Source: a virus
IMG/VR virus record: IMGVR_UViG_3300009418_000114
Location: 1-24,759 of that record
Reading direction: 5' to 3' (one strand)
Length of the DNA stretch: 24,759 nt
Shown here: positions 2,414-23,168 of the stretch, one piece after another
Numbering within the stretch: position 1 is the stretch's first letter
Layout of the letters: each line of letters begins with the position of its first letter
Made by a program: the position numbers and the translations under genes
The notes under the pieces: generated by a model
The model's input: the letters and a program-made list of their open reading frames with translations, nothing else
Told to the model about the DNA's origin: nothing
Database searches by the model: none

Positions 2414-3472
2414 ATGGTCACGTTCAAAGACCGGATAATAGACTTACGCCGTATCCCGGCCCAGGAATTGCAGGCCAATCCAAAGAACTGGCGGCGCCAT
2501 CCAGCCAGTCAACGGGCAGCTTTGCAGGGCATCTTGGAGGATGTGGGCTTTGCCGACGCTGTCATCGCCAGAGAAACGCCCGATGGCCTGGAATTGATAG
2601 ATGGACATCTGCGCCAGGAAGTCATGGGCGACCAGCTTATCCCGGTGTTGGTGTTGGATGTCACCAAAGACGAAGCTGACAAGATGCTGGCAACCCTCGA
2701 CCCTCTGGCAGCGATGGCCCAGAGCGATAAGCAGGCTTTGAGTTCATTGCTGACCAATATCCAGACTGACAATGAGAAACTGTCGGCGATGCTCTCCACG
2801 CTGGGGATATTCGACACTGAACACGTCGCCATTGATGAACTGCATCCCCATCCCCGCAATTATGTGAAACATCCCGAAGCCCAATTGGAACACCTGGCCC
2901 AAAGCATTAAAGATTATGGGTTATACCGGAACGTGGTGATAGCCCAGGATGGTACGATACTGGCAGGGCATGGAGTGGTTGAGGCAGCCAGGAGGACGGG
3001 ATTAGTGACCATCCCAGTCGTCCGATTGGGGATTGGTGCCGATGACCCGAAAGCATTGAAGCTATTGGCAGGGGATAATGAGACTTCCAACCTTGCGGCA
3101 GTGGATGATAGAGCGTTGACGGATATGCTCAAAGAGATTTATTCAACCGGCCCCGGTGCGTTGGTTGGCACAGGATACGATGAGCAGATGCTTGCCAGCC
3201 TTGCGATGGTCACACGCCCCCAAGAGGAGATTGAAGACTTCGACGAGGCCGCTGAATGGTTGGGGATGCCTGACTTTGAATCATCGGACGAATTTGAAGG
3301 TCAACGGCTCCTTGTCCGGTTCGATTGTGAAGCTGACCGTGACGCCTTCATGGAAACATTGCGCACCCTTGACCCGAACTTCAAGCCTGTTATACGCTCA
3401 AAGAAAGTCTGGTCTACATGGTGGCCCTGGCACGATAAGGACGATGTGATGTCGGTACGCCTTGAAAGTTAA
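2414..3472 (+). CDS. Protein with two tandem ParB/sulfiredoxin-like domains
   Basis: The 352-residue product contains two ParB N-terminal-type domains. The first is at about 8-100, with LQANPKNWRRHP and the LIDGHLRQEV motif at 61-70 (GHxR at 64-67). The second is at about 138-228, with DELHPHPRNYVKHP and ILAGHGVVEAARRTG at 182-196. The second domain's GHG lacks the Arg of the first. A C-terminal module (about 295-340, LLVRFDCEADRDAF then KKVWSTWWP) resembles the small domain that ends many phage ParB-like proteins. ParB-fold domains bind or hydrolyse CTP, or act as nucleases; in phages they often stand near terminase and DNA-modification genes. Chromosome partition is unlikely since no ParA is present. 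GAGGGG (2402-2407) is the ribosome site. Domain assignment is firm, reaction unknown. Confidence 0.85.
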   Translation: MVTFKDRIIDLRRIPAQELQANPKNWRRHPASQRAALQGILEDVGFADAVIARETPDGLELIDGHLRQEVMGDQLIPVLVLDVTKDEADKMLATLDPLAAMAQSDKQALSSLLTNIQTDNEKLSAMLSTLGIFDTEHVAIDELHPHPRNYVKHPEAQLEHLAQSIKDYGLYRNVVIAQDGTILAGHGVVEAARRTGLVTIPVVRLGIGADDPKALKLLAGDNETSNLAAVDDRALTDMLKEIYSTGPGALVGTGYDEQMLASLAMVTRPQEEIEDFDEAAEWLGMPDFESSDEFEGQRLLVRFDCEADRDAFMETLRTLDPNFKPVIRSKKVWSTWWPWHDKDDVMSVRLES

Positions 3473-4376
3473 AAACACCGCCAATCTATTGCCTCGCTAC
3501 CCGGTATACGTCCCGTCCAAGGGCCGGGTGGATGTCAACACCACAGCGAAACTATTATTACGGGATAGCGTCCCATTCTATCTGGTGGTGGAGCCACAAG
3601 AAGCAGACATATATGCAGCGAGATTCGGGCGTGACCGATTGCTGGTATTGCCAGCTAACGACCAGGGCTTGGTATATGTCCGTAATTGGATTAAGGGCCA
3701 TGCTACCGATGCGGGATACGAACGGCATTGGCAACTGGACGATAACCTCACCGAGACATTTCGGGCGTATCGCCCCACTGGGTTGAAATTGTCCAAACGG
3801 CTCCCCTGTCAGGCTGGCATAGCGTTGCGGGTCACTGAAGATTTCGTTGACCGCTACACCAATGTCGCCATCGCTGGGCTGAATTATGATTTCTTCGTCA
3901 GCCAGGTTAATGAAAAACCCTTCCGGTTGAATTGCCACGTCTATTCCTGTACGTTGGTGTTGAATAGTCTGCCGCACCGATGGCGGTTGAGATACAACGA
4001 CGACACGGATTTCTGCCTCCAAGTCTTGGCTGATGGTTGGTGTACCGTCCAGATGCAAGCCTTCCTCGTCCACAAGAAAAGAACCATGACGGTCAAGGGT
4101 GGGAATACGCCGATATATCAGCAAGACGGGCGATTGGAGATGGCTCGCTCACTTGAACGAACATGGCCTGGGGTGGTTAAGACTGGGAGGCGGTTCAAGA
4201 GGCCTCAACATCTTGTCCACAGTTCATGGGGCAAATTCGACACGCCATTACAACGCCGCACCGATATTGATTTCGACAACCTATCGGCTGATGCTTATGG
4301 GATGTCCCTCCGGCAAGCGGCCCCGGAGATTAAAAGCGAGAGACTGAAACGGCTAGTAGCTGAAGATGAGAAGTAA
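3462..4376 (+). CDS. Putative TET-associated-type glycosyltransferase (TAGT-like)
   Basis: The 304-residue protein has the layout of the glycosyltransferase family first described beside phage TET/JBP oxygenases: YVPSKGR at 16-22, a Rossmann-like strand FYLVVEPQEADIY at 39-51, RNWIK at 74-78, a DxD-like W-x-L-DDN at 90-95, and RYNDDTDFCLQVL at 177-189. Family members are thought to put a sugar on a modified DNA base. The start is a TTG at 3462 overlapping the ParB-domain gene by 11 nt; no ATG upstream or before the conserved YVPSKGR exists, so a TTG start (3462 or 3489) is needed. Neighbouring methyltransferase and epimerase genes fit a sugar pathway. No TET-like or hydroxymethylase gene is in the window, so the acceptor is unknown. 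Assigned from memory of family motifs; a glycan substrate is the alternative. Confidence 0.68.
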   Translation: MKVKNTANLLPRYPVYVPSKGRVDVNTTAKLLLRDSVPFYLVVEPQEADIYAARFGRDRLLVLPANDQGLVYVRNWIKGHATDAGYERHWQLDDNLTETFRAYRPTGLKLSKRLPCQAGIALRVTEDFVDRYTNVAIAGLNYDFFVSQVNEKPFRLNCHVYSCTLVLNSLPHRWRLRYNDDTDFCLQVLADGWCTVQMQAFLVHKKRTMTVKGGNTPIYQQDGRLEMARSLERTWPGVVKTGRRFKRPQHLVHSSWGKFDTPLQRRTDIDFDNLSADAYGMSLRQAAPEIKSERLKRLVAEDEK

Positions 4377-16361: not shown

Positions 16362-16727
16362 ATGGCAGATAAGTTATTGCAAGGGTTGGATTTGACCTAT
16401 ATGAGGGCAGCGATGAAGACCGCCATGCCCGACACGGTAAACATCCAACGAGAATCACAGGAGGCCGACGGACAGGGCGGCTTCATAACAAGTTGGGGGA
16501 ATGTGTACCAAAACATCCCAGCCCGGCTTAATGCGAAAGGAGCGAGCGAATCTATCGCTGCTGAGAGACTGGATACCCAGTTGGATTTCACCTTGACGGT
16601 AGCGTATGACCAATCCATCGACCCAACCGATAGGGTGGTTCACTCCAGTGGGACTTATGCTGTACAATCAGTGGACACCGGCAAATCCTGGACGCTGTCA
16701 AAGCGATGCCAGATGCGCCAACTGTAG
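16362..16727 (+). CDS. Head-completion/stopper protein (SPP1 gp16-like)
   Basis: The 121-residue protein is beta-rich with the pattern of head closure proteins: PDTVNIQRESQEADGQGGFITSWGNVYQNIPARL, then TLTVAYDQSIDPTDRVVHSSGTYAVQSVD near the C-terminus (a small SH3-like barrel in this family). It lies 2 nt after the adaptor and is followed by the Com-like gene, which overlaps its end by 22 nt. It would plug the portal after packaging. Assignment is by pattern and gene order. Confidence 0.82.
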   Translation: MADKLLQGLDLTYMRAAMKTAMPDTVNIQRESQEADGQGGFITSWGNVYQNIPARLNAKGASESIAAERLDTQLDFTLTVAYDQSIDPTDRVVHSSGTYAVQSVDTGKSWTLSKRCQMRQL

Positions 16728-16924
16728 GGCTGCAAGAGGCCCGATGCCGCAGAATAGAATGCCGGAGTTTACTAGCCCGAATCCGATTGGATGGGAGTAG
16801 CCTAGTCGAGATTAAGTGCCGCCGATGCCAGGCTGTCAGCACTTTTGCACCCGAAACAGCGAAGGTCAAGCTGAAAGCTGACGGACAAGGTGGCTACATC
16901 CATGTCCCGGTGGGCGACAATTGA
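16706..16924 (+). CDS. Com-like zinc-finger protein
   Basis: The 72-residue product contains ARCRRIECRSLLARIRLDG...EIKCRRC, the arrangement of the Mu Com family (Cys pair, LLA, a loop, then EIKCPRC), with Cys at 14, 19, 38 and 41. The first pair is C-x4-C rather than the usual C-x2-C, so the zinc site is slightly altered. Com binds its own message upstream of the mom gene and opens a stem that hides the mom start. No mom homologue is seen here. It overlaps the stopper gene by 22 nt. The placement, 30 nt before the leader ORF and terminator at 16958-17053, would fit an RNA-binding regulator of them, an inference. Confidence 0.68.
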   Translation: MPDAPTVGLQEARCRRIECRSLLARIRLDGSSLVEIKCRRCQAVSTFAPETAKVKLKADGQGGYIHVPVGDN

Positions 16925-16957
16925 CACAACCCCGTCTTGGAGGCCCAGAGAGGCCCA

Positions 16958-17017
16958 ATGAGCGGCCTGACCGCTAGCAGGGGTGGGAATATATGGGAGG
17001 CTCAAAGAAGCCCTTAA
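16958..17017 (+). CDS. Possible 19-residue leader peptide ending in a terminator arm
   Basis: ATG 16958 follows GAGAGG (16948-16953) by 4 nt and opens a 19-residue frame (MSGLTASRGGNIWEAQRSP). The stop TAA (17015-17017) is inside the left arm of the terminator stem 17011-17020. A ribosome at the stop would cover the left arm and stop it pairing. That is the geometry of a leader-peptide attenuator, but the frame is short and lacks runs of a single amino-acid codon. Confidence 0.35.
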   Translation: MSGLTASRGGNIWEAQRSP

Positions 17018-17053
17018 ACGACGTTAGAGTGCGTTTAAGGGGTTTTTGTTTTT
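17011..17053 (+). terminator. Intrinsic terminator between head and tail genes
   Basis: CCCTTAAACG (17011-17020) pairs perfectly with CGTTTAAGGG (17032-17041), an 11-nt loop between, followed by a T-rich run (T5 G T5, 17043-17053). It is the strongest terminator in the window. The T run abuts the ATG of the next gene, and the right arm contains AAGGGG (17037-17042), its only ribosome-site candidate, so folding would both end transcription and hide the site. Confidence 0.88.
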
Positions 17054-17383
17054 ATGGAATTTGCAGCTAAAATCGTAGTGAAGCTGAATCCGAAGTGGCG
17101 AGAAGTGGAGGAGATGCTTGAGAAAGCCATTCGGATTGCGGCGTTCACCATTGAACGAACATCCAAGGAGGATTGCCCGGTGGACACCGGAACCACCCGT
17201 AACAGCATCACAGCACGGGAGGCCGGGAAGCTGGCCTGGACTGTTGGGCCAACAACCCACTACGCCCCGCACTTGGAATACGGAACTATTCACATGACAG
17301 CCAGGCCGTTCATGATTCCCAATGCGGAGAAGGAGCGACCCCGGTTCACCAAGGCCGTCGAAGATATAACCAGGGAATTATAG
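17054..17383 (+). CDS. Head-tail joining / neck protein (HK97 gp10-like)
   Basis: The 109-residue protein begins MEFAAKIVVKLNPKWREVEE and continues AIRIAAFTIERTSKEDCPVDTGTTRNSITA, then HYAPHLEYGTIHMTARPFMIPNAEKERPRFTKAVEDI. The 'CPVDTGxxRxSI' and 'YAxxLEYGT...RPFMxPA' motifs are hallmarks of the HK97 gp10 family, which completes the neck or tail-terminator complex. ATG 17054 has only AAGGGG (17037-17042), inside the terminator stem, as ribosome site, with 11 nt of spacing. Translation is therefore expected to respond to terminator folding. No alternative start gives the conserved N-terminus a better site. Confidence 0.9.
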   Translation: MEFAAKIVVKLNPKWREVEEMLEKAIRIAAFTIERTSKEDCPVDTGTTRNSITAREAGKLAWTVGPTTHYAPHLEYGTIHMTARPFMIPNAEKERPRFTKAVEDITREL

Positions 17384-17797
17384 ATGGCTAATCTGAGGGT
17401 AAATCTGGATACAGCGGTATATGCGGTGCTGAACGTAGCGGCAGTGACCAATGAGGCCACGGGTGGCGTGTTCAACCTCCTCGCCCCAGCTAACACTGCA
17501 CCGCCTTATGTGGTGTTCCAGGCTATGTCCAAAGTGGACGAATATTGGTCGTACACCGGGCGGGGTGGAGCCGCCGTTTACATGATTAAAGCCATAGACC
17601 GGAGTCCCTGGCCCAAATCGGCAGGGGATATAGACACCCAGATTGATTCAGTCATGCAGGATGCTTCGTTGAGCATCACGGGCCATGCGTTACTTATGTG
17701 CCGCCGGGAATCTGATATTTACTTAACAGAAGACCAAGATGGAGTCGTGTATCAACACGTTGGAGGGCTGTATCGCATCATCGCAGACCAAAGCTAA
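17384..17797 (+). CDS. Tail terminator protein (DUF3168-like)
   Basis: The 137-residue protein directly follows the gp10-like gene (stop TAG, then ATG with no gap). It has the DUF3168 pattern: an N-terminal helix (LDTAVYAVLNV), a GGVFNLLAPANTAPPYVVFQAM strand with PPYVV, then YMIKAIDRSPWPKSAGDIDTQIDSVMQDASLSI and a final strand YQHVGGLYRI. These proteins cap the tail tube at the head-proximal end. Order (gp10-like, terminator, tube) is standard. Its 3' end overlaps the zinc-finger gene by 59 nt. Confidence 0.85.
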   Translation: MANLRVNLDTAVYAVLNVAAVTNEATGGVFNLLAPANTAPPYVVFQAMSKVDEYWSYTGRGGAAVYMIKAIDRSPWPKSAGDIDTQIDSVMQDASLSITGHALLMCRRESDIYLTEDQDGVVYQHVGGLYRIIADQS

Positions 17798-17963: not shown

Positions 17964-18204
17964 AGAAGAACCAATCTGGTATCTGGCCTTGAAGAAACTG
18001 CTGATGGCTCAAGGGCCGGGGGTTACGCCATCGTCTATCCGCATCCACCGGGGCCAGCGATTCGCCTTGGATGGGGACGAGCCGGTGGACGTAGAAGAAT
18101 TGATACGGTTGCGAGCCGTCAAGGTGTATGAAGAATCCGACGCTGAATGGGCGCAAGGGGAATTAGCTAAAGCACCCAAACCCAAGAGGAGGAACCGTGG
18201 CTAG
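17938..18204 (+). CDS. Hypothetical protein between tail terminator and tail tube (88 aa)
   Basis: I start at ATG 17938, with AGGAAAG (17921-17927) about 10 nt upstream; the frame opens earlier (17857) but that part overlaps the zinc-finger gene and is basic and unlikely. The product has EEEPIWYLALKKLLMAQGPGVTPSSIRIHRGQRFALDGDEP, then VEELIRLRAVKVYEESD and a Lys/Arg-rich end (PKPKRRNRG). The 'IRIHRGQRFALDG' strand followed by 'V-L-I-R-L-R-AV' resembles small neck/tail accessory proteins. Role unknown. It overlaps the tube gene by 8 nt. Confidence 0.7.
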   Translation: MPDTTKTTEEEPIWYLALKKLLMAQGPGVTPSSIRIHRGQRFALDGDEPVDVEELIRLRAVKVYEESDAEWAQGELAKAPKPKRRNRG

Positions 18205-18958
18205 AATCCATGCAAAGTCTGCCGGTTTATTGGTGGATGAATTTGACTTCAGCGGAATATCCAACTCCATGACGCTGAACTTTGCTGAGACCCCGGCTGA
18301 CGTAACAGCTTTCGCCGATACTGACATGACTTACGTCCAGGGAAAGCCAACATTCACCTTCGATGTAAACGGGCTTTGGAGTACGTCCAGCCCGAACTAC
18401 GACGGTGAAATGTTCACTGACCTTACCGCCACAGCGAGGCGGGTTGGAATCTATCCCGGCGGGTTGACCCAAGGCAATGTGGGCTATGAAGGGCCAACTC
18501 TAATCAGCGCATCTCCCCGTGTCAGCAGCGTTGGGGATGCCATCGCCTGCAACGTCACCTGGCAGGGTGCAAGCGCACCGTTCCGCTCCCAAATCATTCT
18601 CGCCAACACGATAACCTGCAACGGCTCGACAGTGGTCGTCAACGGCACTGGCTATAACAGCGGCGTGATAGCCGCAACCAACACGATTTTCGGTGTCTGG
18701 CGAATGGTCGAAATGGGTGGCTCTGGGACAAATACGATTGCCCTGGAAATCCAGAGCGAGACGAATGATACCTGGGGTTCCCCCACGACCCGCATCAACT
18801 TCGGGACTATTACGCATAGCACCGGGGTATCGTTCCTTACTGCGTCTGCCACAGGGCCAGGAGCATCTGAATCTTGGTGGCGGGTGAAGATACAGTCGTC
18901 CGGCACAGGAAGCCGAACGTTTCAGAATTACGTCAGTTTCGGTTACTTCGTAACGTAG
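18197..18958 (+). CDS. Tail-tube-like protein 1, with extra C-terminal beta domain
   Basis: This gene starts with GTG 18197, preceded by GAGGAGG (4-nt spacing), and overlaps the preceding stop. Residues 1-130 match the other two tube proteins in pattern: MARIHAKSAGLLVDEFDFSGI, TLNFAETPADVTAFADT, GKPTFTFDVNGLW, VTWQG near 125. Residues 130-253 form an additional beta-rich, Gly/Thr/Ser-rich domain (STVVVNGTGYNSG, TNTIALEIQSET, ESWWRVKIQSSGTGS) absent from the others. Tube proteins polymerise as stacked rings; extra C-terminal domains decorate the tube surface or bind glycans. Assigned by pattern and position; which of the three is the main tube protein cannot be told. Confidence 0.78.
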   Translation: MARIHAKSAGLLVDEFDFSGISNSMTLNFAETPADVTAFADTDMTYVQGKPTFTFDVNGLWSTSSPNYDGEMFTDLTATARRVGIYPGGLTQGNVGYEGPTLISASPRVSSVGDAIACNVTWQGASAPFRSQIILANTITCNGSTVVVNGTGYNSGVIAATNTIFGVWRMVEMGGSGTNTIALEIQSETNDTWGSPTTRINFGTITHSTGVSFLTASATGPGASESWWRVKIQSSGTGSRTFQNYVSFGYFVT

Positions 18959-18967
18959 GAGATAGAC

Positions 18968-19402
18968 ATGGCAAGAACCCACGGGAAAGATAGTAATTTC
19001 AGCTTCAATTCGGTGGCGATTGAGGATGAACTGACCAGTATCACCATGACTGCATCGGTTGCAGAGGGCGATATCACTGCCTTCGGGGATGCGTACCAAA
19101 ATTTCCTGGCAGGGAAGAAGGACATATCTTTCGATGTGACGGGGGCGTTGGACATGGATTTCGCATCGGATGGGGATGCAACTATCTTCGACCACATCGC
19201 CTTGACATCGGGGCCGAAGACGCTGGTCTATGACCCGGACGGAGCAGGGCCAGACACCAATTCCCCAGAATATACTTGTACGTCCAGCGGTTTGACCGGA
19301 GCGTTGGTGTCGTCGTATACCATCAATCTACCAGTGGGGGATGCTGCCACGTACACCGCCACTTTCCAATGTAGTGGGTCAACTACACGGGCCGTTTCAT
19401 AA
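18968..19402 (+). CDS. Tail-tube-like protein 2
   Basis: The 144-residue product begins MARTHGKDSNFSFNSVAIEDE and has TMTASVAEGDITAFGDAYQNFLAGKKDISFDVTG and a C-terminal strand (SYTINLPVGDAATYTATFQ). It shares its start and the 'DITAFGD.YQNFLAGK' block with protein 3 almost exactly and the pattern with protein 1, so the three genes arose by duplication. AGGAGATAG is the ribosome site. Size and fold-like pattern fit a siphovirus major tail protein; a second subunit type within the tube or a tip/neck ring is possible. Confidence 0.8.
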   Translation: MARTHGKDSNFSFNSVAIEDELTSITMTASVAEGDITAFGDAYQNFLAGKKDISFDVTGALDMDFASDGDATIFDHIALTSGPKTLVYDPDGAGPDTNSPEYTCTSSGLTGALVSSYTINLPVGDAATYTATFQCSGSTTRAVS

Positions 19403-19456
19403 ATCGCCTTAAACCGGCTCTGAGGGCCAAATAAACCATACTGAGGAGGGACTATC

Positions 19457-19864
19457 ATGGCACGAACTCATGGGAAAGATGCTGACTTTACGTTTGACTC
19501 GGTAGCGATTGAAGATGAGTTAAACTCAGTCACGCTGAACTTTACCGTACCGGAAGCCGACATCACCGCTTTCGGTGACTCGTATCAAAACTTCTTGGCA
19601 GGCAAACCAACCGCCACCATCGACGTTGCGGGGTTCGCTGACCTGGCCTCCAGCCAGGGCGATGCAACCATATTCGGGGAACTGGGGCTGGAAGGCGAAG
19701 AATGGGATTTCGAGCCTGACGGCAGCACGGGCTACAACGGTTTTGCCATCGTCACAAGCTATTCTATTACCAGCACGGTTGGTGGGCCGATAACCTATTC
19801 GGCTTCGTTCCGACACAACGGTGGGTCTGCCGCTGCTGACGCTGCTGCGCCGACCAGAGGGTAA
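19457..19864 (+). CDS. Tail-tube-like protein 3
   Basis: The 135-residue product begins MARTHGKDADFTFDSVAIEDE and continues VTLNFTVPEADITAFGDSYQNFLAGKPTATIDVAG, ending YSITSTVGGPITYSASFRHNG. It is the closest paralogue of protein 2. GAGGAGGG (6-nt spacing) is a strong ribosome site, and the gene is preceded by a 54-nt gap, so it may be the most highly made of the three. It directly precedes the tail chaperone gene. Assigned by pattern, paralogy and place. Confidence 0.82.
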   Translation: MARTHGKDADFTFDSVAIEDELNSVTLNFTVPEADITAFGDSYQNFLAGKPTATIDVAGFADLASSQGDATIFGELGLEGEEWDFEPDGSTGYNGFAIVTSYSITSTVGGPITYSASFRHNGGSAAADAAAPTRG

Positions 19865-19899: not shown

Positions 19900-19925
19900 T
19901 TGGGATGGGGAACAAGGAGAGGCTC

Positions 19926-20390
19926 ATGAAGCCCAAGGGAAAGCTGAAAATACCCGCCGTTAGGGTCACATCCGACGACTGTTCTATCAGCATCGGTCAG
20001 GTCATGGAGGACGGGGAAATCACCGTCCCAGGCACGCCGCACTACGTCCACGTTGACGAGTGGATTGAAGTCATGCCGGTCATCGCTGTCAAGGAAGTAA
20101 TGCAACTATCCCGGCTCCAACGGGGCGGTGAGGAGAGTGGTGCATTGGGGGAAAGCCTGGGACAGTTGTGCCAGGAATTATCCAAGCGGCTCCTGGCCTG
20201 GAACTGGACAGACCTGATGGGCGAGAAGATGGAACAGCCCTACAACCGGCCCGACATTCTGGAGAATCTATCTGCCGACGAACTGCTGTGGTTGGTTAAC
20301 GCTACATCAGAACAGGAGAAGCCGGAGGCACGTTTAAAAGACTCCGAACCCTCGGAGAGCATATCCTTGGCGATGGGCCGCAGCCAGTAG
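19926..20390 (+). CDS. Tail assembly chaperone (G-type, upstream frame)
   Basis: I start at ATG 19926 with AAGGAG (19914-19919) 6 nt upstream; an in-frame ATG at 19905 includes that site. The 154-residue product is mixed (MKPKGKLKIPAVRV..., then WTDLMGEKMEQPYNRPDILENLSADELLWLVNA). It lies between tube and tape-measure genes, exactly where lambda G stands, and the canonical -1 slip site is in its last 20 codons. G-type chaperones bind the tape measure and recruit tube subunits. Sequence similarity to named families is low, as usual; the frameshift and location carry the assignment. Confidence 0.85.
   Translation: MKPKGKLKIPAVRVTSDDCSISIGQVMEDGEITVPGTPHYVHVDEWIEVMPVIAVKEVMQLSRLQRGGEESGALGESLGQLCQELSKRLLAWNWTDLMGEKMEQPYNRPDILENLSADELLWLVNATSEQEKPEARLKDSEPSESISLAMGRSQ
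20333..20357 (+). promoter_or_regulatory. Programmed -1 ribosomal frameshift site in the tail chaperone gene
   Basis: T TTA AAA (20333-20339) is a canonical X-XXY-YYZ heptamer, in the right phase: TTA (20334) and AAA (20337) are codons 137 and 138 of the upstream gene. Two bases later CTCCGA (20342-20347) and TCGGAG (20352-20357) form a perfect 6-bp hairpin with a 4-nt loop. The -1 frame is open from the slip to 20596. Confidence 0.9.
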
Positions 20391-20596
20391 CGGCTACCGT
20401 GAGCATCATCTGTGAAAGTTTCGGGTGCTTGCCCGATGAGGCGATGGAGCAGAACTGGAACTTGGTGCGAGAGATTCTGGATTATAGATTATTGATGAGC
20501 GCAAAAGACCAACATAATCAGGACGCAAGCCAGATGCAACCGGCCCAGGTAGCCTTATGGCGGGAGATGGTTGAGGCGGCAGAGAGCGATGGCTGA
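20339..20596 (+). CDS. Tail assembly chaperone T-type extension (made by -1 frameshift)
   Basis: After the slip at 20333-20339 the ribosome reads AGA at 20339 and continues for 85 residues to TGA 20594-20596. The fusion is 138 + 85 = 223 residues. The extension contains VSIICESFGCLPDEAMEQNWNLVREILDYRLLMSAKDQ and ends WREMVEAAESDG, helical and charged, as in T domains of other phages. An independent start at GTG 20399 would give 65 residues but has no ribosome site. The stop overlaps the tape-measure start by 8 nt. The fused form would be minor relative to the G form. Confidence 0.85.
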   Translation, partial: RLRTLGEHILGDGPQPVAATVSIICESFGCLPDEAMEQNWNLVREILDYRLLMSAKDQHNQDASQMQPAQVALWREMVEAAESDG

Positions 20597-23168
20597 AGCA
20601 ACGACGGTATCAGTTCTACTCCAAGCCAAAGACCAGGCTTCCGCTACCATCGACAAGGTTGAGGGACGCATGGGGCGTCTCGCCGGGAACTTCGGCAAGC
20701 ACCGGCAAAAGATTGGGATGGCTGCGGCTGGCATCGGTGCCGGGATAACCGCCATCGGTGTCGCTGCTATGAAGTCGTTCCAAGAAGAACAGATTGGCAT
20801 CAAGAAGCTGGATGCAGCCTTGAAAGGGGCCGGGTCTAGTTATGATGCTCAGAAGAAATCCATCGAGGCGGTGGTTGCCGCCCAGCAGAACAAGACGAAC
20901 TTCGGGGACGAGCAGCAACGGGATGCCCTCCGTCAACTGGTGTTAGCGAGCGGGGATTACGAGAACAGCATCAAGGTTCTACCGGCCTTGCTGGATACGG
21001 CGGCTGGGTCTGGTAAAAGCCTGGAAGGTGTAGCCCTTGCCGTTGGGAGGGCCATCGGTGGGGAAGCCACAGCCTTGAAGGGTTTCGGGGTTACGTTGGA
21101 CAATACCGCTGGGCCATTGGAAGTCATCACGGCCCTGCAACAAAAGTTTGGAGGACAAGCTGAAGCGTCGGCTGACCCGATGACCCAACTGACCAACCGG
21201 CTGGGGGATTTATCCCAGGAGTTCGGTAAGGTGTTGCTACCCATCTTGGAATCTGTCATACCGAAGATAGAACTATTCGTACGCCAAATCATCGAATGGA
21301 CATCAGCCCACCCAGAACTAACGAAGGTGCTTGCCCTCACCGCCGCCGCCATCGGTGCGATATTGTTGGTCGTTGGGCCAATCCTTATAGCCCTGCCGTT
21401 GCTGGCTGCCGGGTTCACTATGGTGATGGCATCCATCTTCCCCATCACGGCTACCATCCTTGCCATTACTGTCGCCATAGCTGCGACTATTATCATCTGG
21501 AAGAAATGGGAGGACATGGGGCTGAAGATGAAAATCGCCCTTGGCCTTCTCATGCCGCCGTTAATCATCCTGATTGCCGTCATCAAGAACTGGGACAAGA
21601 TTGTGGACACCGTCAAGAAAACGGTTTCGTCATTCATCAAGTCGATTCTTGATTTAGCGAAAGGATTCCTACAAGGCATCAAGGCCATGACTAGCTGGCA
21701 CCCTGCGTTACGAGGCTGGGGTGCTGCCATTGACGACGCAATCCGCAAGATAGACGATATGGATTTCACCATGACCAAATGGGCGGCTTCCGGCGGTGCG
21801 GCGATGGGAGACATGAGCGATGAGATGAATCATACGCTGATACCCGCCGTGGAAGAAACTGACCGGGCGTTTGCCACAGGAACCGGAAGCATCGCTGAAG
21901 ACATCAAGAAGCTGGAAAACGAAATCGCCGGGGCGACGGAGGGCGTGAAAGAGTCCGTTAAAGGCTGGGGATTTGAGATAGACAAGACGAATGGCATAGT
22001 CGTAGAAAAGGCCGTCGCTATGGCAGAAGCTATCCGTAACACAGCCGAAGCCTTCCAAGAAGCCGGGGATGTAATCGTGACCGAATCCCAGAGAAAAGCG
22101 AAGGCTGTACGGGATGCGGAGGCTGAGATACAGAAATCGTTAAAGGAAACCACCACCGCCTTGGAATTAAACGCTGAGATTGACGCCTTCCTGTCCCGGC
22201 AAAAAGTCGAAAATATGGAAGAAGAATTTGAGGGTGTGCGAAGGACGACTGATAAGATTCTGGAACAAATAGAGCGGAGCAATCGTGGTCTTGATGAACA
22301 TGGAAAGAAGTGGGAGGAATTGCCGGACGCAATCGGTCATGCCCTCGATAAAATCCCCCCGCTTCTTGGTGACGCTGATTTTGCAATGCAGCAAACGCTT
22401 GACCGTATGGGTGACAAGCTCACTGACAATATCCATTCGTGGGGCGATGAACTAGAAGGGTTTTCAGCGGAACAAAACAAGAGGATACAAGACGAAATAA
22501 ACAGGGAAAAAAAGAAAAGAGAGGACGAAGAAAAAGACGCAGCCGAAGCAGAGCGGCAAAGGATGATTGAAAAATTTAAGGGGACACCGCAGTTTGCCAG
22601 TATGGCAGAACAGCGGGAGAAATTACGCTCTGTAGAACACGCCCTTGAAAGCCAAAAGGGTGCTTTGCCGTCGATGCGGCAAGCAATCACACAGGCCGAA
22701 GCCGGGATGCAAGAATACGCTGGTACAGGGTATGGCGCATCCCAGCGTAGGCAACAATACTGGACTGGTAGTGTCAGGCCTTTGCAAGACCAATACCAGC
22801 GTCAGACTGAACGAATAAGGGCAACAAGGTATCAGATAGAAGCTCTGCAATCTCAAATAGCAAAGAACGTGATTCCTTTGGAGTATAGAGGTATTGCGGA
22901 GAACGTGTTGTCGAATGAGTGGATGCGGCCCATGCAAGGCGGCGGCGTATCTGGTGGAGGCTTGGCCCTGGTTGGTGAGCGTGGGCCGGAAGTGGTATCC
23001 CTGCCCGGTGGGGCCAGGGTGCATCCCAGTGGGAGCGGCCCCGGTACGAATAACTTCATCTTCCACGGAGCCGTATATGGACTTGAAGATTTGCGCCGGG
23101 TGGTGGTGGAGGCGGTTCGTGACCATGCCCTGTCCGGTGGATTCCGTGGCGTGTTTGGTGAAGCCTGA
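20589..23168 (+). CDS. Tape measure protein
   Basis: I start at ATG 20589 (8-nt overlap with the chaperone stop) rather than an upstream TTG. The 859-residue protein opens with a coiled-coil segment (VSVLLQAKDQASATIDKVEGRMGRLAGNFGKHRQKIGMAAAGIG), has a hydrophobic stretch around residues 243-345 with at least three membrane-like helices (LTAAAIGAILLVVGPILIALPLLAAG; ILAITVAIAATIIIW; ALGLLMPPLIILIAVI), then long charged helices (545-680), and ends with GLALVGERGPEVVSLPGGARVHPSG, the typical tape-measure C-terminal motif. At about 0.15 nm per residue the tail would be near 130 nm. No peptidoglycan hydrolase domain is seen. Confidence 0.94.
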   Translation: MAEATTVSVLLQAKDQASATIDKVEGRMGRLAGNFGKHRQKIGMAAAGIGAGITAIGVAAMKSFQEEQIGIKKLDAALKGAGSSYDAQKKSIEAVVAAQQNKTNFGDEQQRDALRQLVLASGDYENSIKVLPALLDTAAGSGKSLEGVALAVGRAIGGEATALKGFGVTLDNTAGPLEVITALQQKFGGQAEASADPMTQLTNRLGDLSQEFGKVLLPILESVIPKIELFVRQIIEWTSAHPELTKVLALTAAAIGAILLVVGPILIALPLLAAGFTMVMASIFPITATILAITVAIAATIIIWKKWEDMGLKMKIALGLLMPPLIILIAVIKNWDKIVDTVKKTVSSFIKSILDLAKGFLQGIKAMTSWHPALRGWGAAIDDAIRKIDDMDFTMTKWAASGGAAMGDMSDEMNHTLIPAVEETDRAFATGTGSIAEDIKKLENEIAGATEGVKESVKGWGFEIDKTNGIVVEKAVAMAEAIRNTAEAFQEAGDVIVTESQRKAKAVRDAEAEIQKSLKETTTALELNAEIDAFLSRQKVENMEEEFEGVRRTTDKILEQIERSNRGLDEHGKKWEELPDAIGHALDKIPPLLGDADFAMQQTLDRMGDKLTDNIHSWGDELEGFSAEQNKRIQDEINREKKKREDEEKDAAEAERQRMIEKFKGTPQFASMAEQREKLRSVEHALESQKGALPSMRQAITQAEAGMQEYAGTGYGASQRRQQYWTGSVRPLQDQYQRQTERIRATRYQIEALQSQIAKNVIPLEYRGIAENVLSNEWMRPMQGGGVSGGGLALVGERGPEVVSLPGGARVHPSGSGPGTNNFIFHGAVYGLEDLRRVVVEAVRDHALSGGFRGVFGEA

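Follow-up and report, generated by a model that had tools for sequence, protein, structure and literature searches.

A conserved leader RNA with predicted Com-binding hairpins and a terminator at the head-tail gene junction of an uncultured phage

Results

Gene organization at the head-tail junction

The window, that is, the whole stretch of DNA analyzed here, is the IMG/VR viral contig IMGVR_UViG_3300009418_000114 (24,759 nt), derived from an uncultured virus of bacteria. In this window, a head-completion gene (16362-16727) overlaps a gene for a 72-amino-acid Com-like zinc-ribbon protein (16706-16924, plus strand), which was recognized by family and profile matches. After a gap, it is followed by a gp10-like tail-completion gene (17054-17383, plus strand; Pfam HK97-gp10_like and phrog_5) and a gp17-like tail completion gene (17384-17797). 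Three adjacent major-tail-protein-like genes (18197-19864), apparently paralogues, and a 154-amino-acid gene (19926-20390, plus strand), whose function is assigned from its position only, then precede the tape measure gene (20571-23168). The gp10-like gene and the 154-amino-acid gene are the two genes that we propose to be regulated. A search of phage records found no similar DNA and no similar gp17.

Related contigs were collected by scans with the gp10, Com-like, major capsid, and gp17 proteins. The gene order of Com-like gene, gap, gp10, and gp17 was common to many of them in these protein scans, and the gap between com and gp10 measured 100-165 nt in almost all relatives and was alike as a folded RNA. 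One relative, L140, is a contig of a Chloroflexota MAG, which points to hosts among the Chloroflexota, with the usual caution about binning. In two relatives, L061 and L202, genes have been inserted after com, yet the leader RNA still adjoins gp10; in L202 the inserted gene encodes an HNH protein and the leader RNA stands before gp10. Additional genes land in the com-gp10 gap and bring terminators or promoters of their own (L061 and L067/L165).

A conserved structured RNA precedes gp10

The interval between the head and tail genes contains a conserved structured RNA of about 125 nt (16929-17053), which ends at the gp10 start. In this RNA, a stem P1 encloses hairpins P2 and P3 as a closed junction, and a further hairpin P4 and then a terminator T come after it, all on the plus strand. 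The 5' arm of P1 (ACCCC, 16929-16933) pairs with its 3' arm (GGGGU, 16980-16984), P2 is GGCC-(CAGAGA)-GGCC (16942-16955), P3 is AGCGG-(CCUGA)-CCGCU (16961-16975), and P4 is GGCU-(CAAAGA)-AGCC (16999-17012), of which 17011-17012 are shared with the stem of T. The general forms across the relatives are GGCY-loop-RGCC for P2 and AGCGR-loop-YCGCU for P3. An earlier reading of the window from its letters only (hereafter, the sequence-only reading) had its local sequence facts right and missed this main feature, the folded RNA at 16929-17012 with its three Com-type hairpins.

The structure is borne out by comparison. In 28 elements, the cognate arms of P1 paired better than those of all 2000 permutations. 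In P2 and P3, 92.9% of the positions were paired and six pairs were changed on both sides, a result that 0 of 500 shuffles equaled; the last pair of P2, for example, occurs as U-A, C-G, A-U, G-C, and U-G. A Com-type loop in P4 is kept in about half of the relatives. We obtained 27 distinct P2-P3 cores, none of which occurred elsewhere in the related loci searched. A search of the window against Rfam gave no match to a known riboswitch or any other family at the gathering score and none credible at a loose threshold, and the leader RNA is a putative regulatory RNA family without an Rfam entry.

Several other signals were considered. A match of the RNA model in a Chloroflexota genome (L320) lies beside a CRISPR-like repeat array without such com or phage genes and was discarded as a false positive. 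A 16S-like string, GAACGCUGGCGG, found in many relatives, is accounted for by the P3 and P1 stems and is missing from the window. Some relatives have an AUG within the P4 loop; considered as the true gp10 start, it was generally out of frame when inspected by eye. A short string, ACAAYYGAAUA, is kept before P1 (in the region of 16916-16927 in the window) and is clear in L042, L053, L054, L058, L140, and L202. Its frame relative to the end of com differs among relatives, and in L140 and L202 it does not code for protein at all; it is possibly a promoter or an RNA element. In a close relative (L005, 2653-2922), the com stop codon is lost and P3 is degraded, and the frame extends into the RNA.

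The Com-like protein and its predicted target motif

The Com-like protein of the window matches the translational regulator family phrog_6417 (E value, 1.5e-4). It has no Pfam match itself; Zn_ribbon_Com (PF10122) was matched by 6 of the 12 Com-like family members (best E value, 2e-5), with L074 and L140 exceeding the cut-off, and profile-profile comparison with known Com proteins of Mu, B3, and others gave a probability of 96.4 and an E value of 1.4e-9. The zinc cysteines of the window protein are C14, C19, C38, and C41, and among the 12 members three of these four are invariant and one is nearly so. The first knuckle of these Com-like proteins is C-x4-C, not C-x2-C, which, like the sub-threshold Pfam score of the window protein, counts against the explanation proposed below. 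A fold search with a model of the protein gave no significant match. Judged from its sequence, the gene directly upstream of the leader RNA is a diverged com homologue.

SELEX with the zinc-finger domain of H. sputorum Com yielded two motifs, CC(N)2-3GAG placed in a hairpin loop and the bipartite NGAGNNCC(N)2-3GAGNNCCNN, and the GA of the loop was protected by Com (PMC6483171). The loops of P2, P3, and P4 all read C-N(2-3)-G-A, which is the loop type bound by Com in phage Mu. P2 with its flanking GA (16940-16956, GAGGCCCAGAGAGGCCC) matches the bipartite motif GAGNNCC(N)2-3GAGNNCC exactly, and this motif has no other match in the window when both strands are read (0.08 expected per strand). Across related loci amounting to 1.34 Mb, it was found in 16 contexts, all inside the leader RNA, and the L140 leader carries three such motifs in tandem. 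Hairpins with C-N2/3-GA loops numbered 54 in 28 leaders vs 2.25 in shuffled sequence. When the window and 17 related contigs (307 kb) were scanned with strict settings, all 34 Com-type hairpins lay at the leader or at the site described below for 19921 (0.9 in shuffles), counts that are not independent events because the contigs are related. The terminator is kept without a clear C-N2/3-GA pair in the more diverged relatives L084 and L201, a point against the proposed role of Com.

As a positive control, B3, Phipami28, Baskent_P5, and Mcat3 each had a pair of these hairpins between com and the next gene, separated by about 20 nt as are P2 and P3; the next gene is mom or a methylase gene in three of the four. 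One Com-type hairpin follows com of phage Mu, and none of at least 4 bp follows com of the E. coli phage Chuche. Because these four known com genes are followed by two hairpins spaced by about 20 nt, a tandem pair looks like a common Com target. Together, these comparisons suggest that the Com-like protein very probably binds the RNAs of the leader and of the second site, and the proposal of the sequence-only reading that this protein is a candidate RNA-binding partner thus gains support from independent motif evidence.

Apart from these sites, the window contains two neighboring genes at 2414-4376, the first ParB_N-like and the second coding for a TET-associated glycosyltransferase (TAGT), a pair that suggests hypermodified DNA. 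A hairpin in front of these genes (2328-2341), considered as a Com site, was at chance level.

The terminator and the gp10 ribosome site

T (17011-17053, plus strand) has a stem of 10 bp (17011-17020/17032-17041; -15.0 kcal/mol) followed by a U-run, TTTTTGTTTTT, at 17043-17053, and the gp10 ATG lies at 17054, so that the terminator ends on the base before the start codon just as the sequence-only reading had described. With its stable stem, G+C-rich at the base, and its U-run it is a predicted intrinsic terminator, which a simple terminator scan misses solely through its 11-nt loop, and it represents more than chance because all relatives examined have a stem and U-run at the same place. AAGGGG (17037-17042), 11 nt from the gp10 ATG, forms part of the right arm of T. 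In the window, as in most relatives, gp10 has no purine-rich ribosome site other than the one in this arm. The earlier placement of the gp10 ribosome site in this arm therefore stands for these, and fails for L202, in which a separate ribosome site for gp10 follows T. In L201 the terminator is kept and the gp10 start lies further downstream. These two relatives indicate that what all relatives share is the terminator and not burial of the ribosome site, and the arrangement in L202 makes the terminator look like the older feature.

Losing the two pairs that overlap with P4 would weaken T of the window from -15.0 to -9.7 kcal/mol, and free-energy folding alone gives no choice of P4 over T. Two further com loci of Chloroflexota, L324 and L323, each have a Com-type hairpin whose 3' arm doubles as the 5' arm of a strong terminator, which is situated away from a start codon (-32.9 kcal/mol in L324 and -22.2 kcal/mol in L323). 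The hairpin in L324 is GGCC-CAACGA-GGCC, and that in L323 has a 7-nt loop, which lies outside the strict motif. A major tail protein gene comes next in L323, and an unnamed gene and then a major head gene in L324. Because the arms are shared, Com-type hairpin and terminator would be mutually exclusive at these loci; together with the 2-nt overlap in the window, this supports Com as an antiterminator, with the sign of its action not proven.

A second Com-type hairpin at a start codon

The P2-P3 covariance model also finds a single hairpin near 19919. This second Com-type hairpin, GGCU-(CAUGA)-AGCC (19921-19933, plus strand), has in its loop the start codon of the 154-amino-acid pre-tape-measure gene (AGGAGAGGCUC-AUG-AAGCCC). 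It is kept in 21 distinct contexts, in which conservation amounts to about 0.2 bits per position in the upstream noncoding flank vs up to 2.0 in the hairpin, and two compensatory changes alter both sides of a pair, in L005 (GACU/AGUC) and L254 (GGUU/AACC). Its shuffle control, with nine distinct hairpins, is weaker (20/500).

The 19-codon leader ORF

A 19-codon ORF runs from an ATG at 16958 to a TAA at 17017 (plus strand) and stops inside the left arm of T. The sequence-only reading had proposed that a ribosome finishing this ORF would control the terminator. The ORF exists as described; its ATG, restricted to the clade of the window, is found in 1 of 28 distinct elements, no more than chance, whereas a leader-peptide attenuator would call for a conserved leader ORF. 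What looked like its ribosome site belongs to P2, as the conserved 3' arm of that hairpin, and the region varies as RNA stems and not as codons. Although the spacing to a GAGG and the stop inside the left arm speak for ribosome-coupled attenuation, this explanation is refuted as a conserved mechanism and retains a negligible probability, and we regard the ORF as a chance feature with no part in the mechanism.

Discussion

Comparison of sequences shows the conserved structure, the terminator, the loop motif, the homology to Com, and the presence of predicted Com sites at exactly two places per genome. The leader is likely a Com-responsive transcription attenuator before the tail genes, with an additional Com operator on a tail-assembly gene. 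The leader RNA would act in cis and sense the Com-like zinc-ribbon protein that the phage itself encodes. This Com, expressed together with the head genes, would bind the C-N(2-3)-GA loops of P2 and P3 (and of P4 where present), and binding would alter whether T forms before gp10, so that tail-gene transcription might be held at T until Com accumulates. Opening of T would also free the gp10 ribosome site in most relatives. At the second hairpin, Com may switch translation of the pre-tape-measure gene, most simply by blocking it. The parts of this proposal differ in strength. T is probably regulated rather than constitutive, and a conditional terminator before gp10, as already suggested by the sequence-only reading, is supported. 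Repression by Com at the second site is somewhat favored, and we lean, a little less firmly, toward Com opening rather than closing T. Against the proposal, P4 overlaps T by only 2 nt in the window and a Com-type P4 is missing in about half of the relatives, which leaves a gap between Com at P2 and P3 and an effect on T.

It is possible, though rather unlikely, that Com acts on translation only, as in Mu, with T being a terminator-like stem that inhibits translation and that Com melts, which would make the ribosome site of gp10 accessible. In its favor, the sole purine-rich ribosome site of gp10 indeed lies within the right arm of T, both in the window and in most relatives, and a Com hairpin immediately precedes the stem, an arrangement also known from Mu mom; however, the stem is followed by a U-run in all relatives, the terminator is kept where the ribosome site lies after it (L202) or the start lies further downstream (L201), and the strong terminators of L323 and L324 are away from a start codon. 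Similarly doubtful is that Com represses at both places and, bound to P1-P3, favors termination as a feedback on the tail genes late in infection. The hairpin whose loop holds the ATG at 19926 does resemble a repressor operator, and nothing in the present data fixes the sign at the leader, whereas the 2-nt overlap of P4 with T and the shared arms in L324 and L323 predict that Com hinders T, and Com is an activator in Mu (PMC6483171).

The RNA might instead be a free small RNA, either the 3' end of the head transcript or a separate transcript stopped at T, that acts elsewhere, for example, as a sponge holding Com on P2 and P3. In the clade of L056, L057, and L061, a promoter-like TTGATT-17-TATAAT directly 5' of P1, with an inverted repeat TTTGAG..CTCAAA between its hexamers, would suit such a transcript; against it, the RNA stays with gp10 despite the insertions after com (L061 and L202) and immediately precedes that gene in every relative of the clade, and we consider a small RNA improbable.

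The proposed attenuator resembles Com-mom of phage Mu in that a Com homologue is encoded directly upstream and a hairpin with a C-N2/3-GA loop precedes a stem burying the start signals of the next gene (PMC6483171). Unlike in Mu, the targets would be tail genes (gp10-like and pre-tape-measure) and not mom or a DNA-modification gene, the hairpins number three, of which P2 and P3 share a closed junction, a U-run makes the stem a predicted intrinsic terminator, and a second, remote operator is predicted. In com-dam/com-mom of Pseudomonas B3-like and related phages, two Com-type hairpins likewise stand about 20 nt apart after com, but the target there is a DNA methylase gene or mom, and no terminator fused to a start codon was noted. 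In antitermination by LicT/SacY, the 3' side of the protein-bound RAT hairpin overlaps the 5' side of the terminator, as between the hairpins and terminators described here, and we know of no protein or RNA sequence relation between the two systems. The coat protein of MS2 binds a hairpin at the start codon of another gene, as Com may do at the second site, with a different protein and loop.

The annotated com genes that we checked adjoin mom or a methylase gene, the next gene in Moraxella Mcat3 being unnamed, and the open-access literature (subscription papers being outside the scope) contained no report of Com controlling structural genes. This suggests that control of structural genes by Com is new, while its control of mom and DNA-modification genes is already known. 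Tentatively, and with somewhat less than even confidence, Com proteins may be general RNA-guided timers of virion assembly in Chloroflexota phages and perhaps others. If so, Com-responsive terminators would order head and tail genes, with mom/dam as one special use, and the tail-assembly machinery would be tuned through an operator for Com placed at a start codon. The association of a Com homologue and its hairpins with tail genes and a terminator makes post-transcriptional control of the head-to-tail order testable. Com and its aptamer are in use as tools, and the leaders provide a natural set of candidate Com sites for work on Com-RNA recognition. A further hairpin of this type was seen in L046 (796-1486) and also in L047, where a gene for a 224-amino-acid protein without a family match is inserted 3' of the portal gene and GGCU(CUAGA)AGCC stands directly before its ATG.
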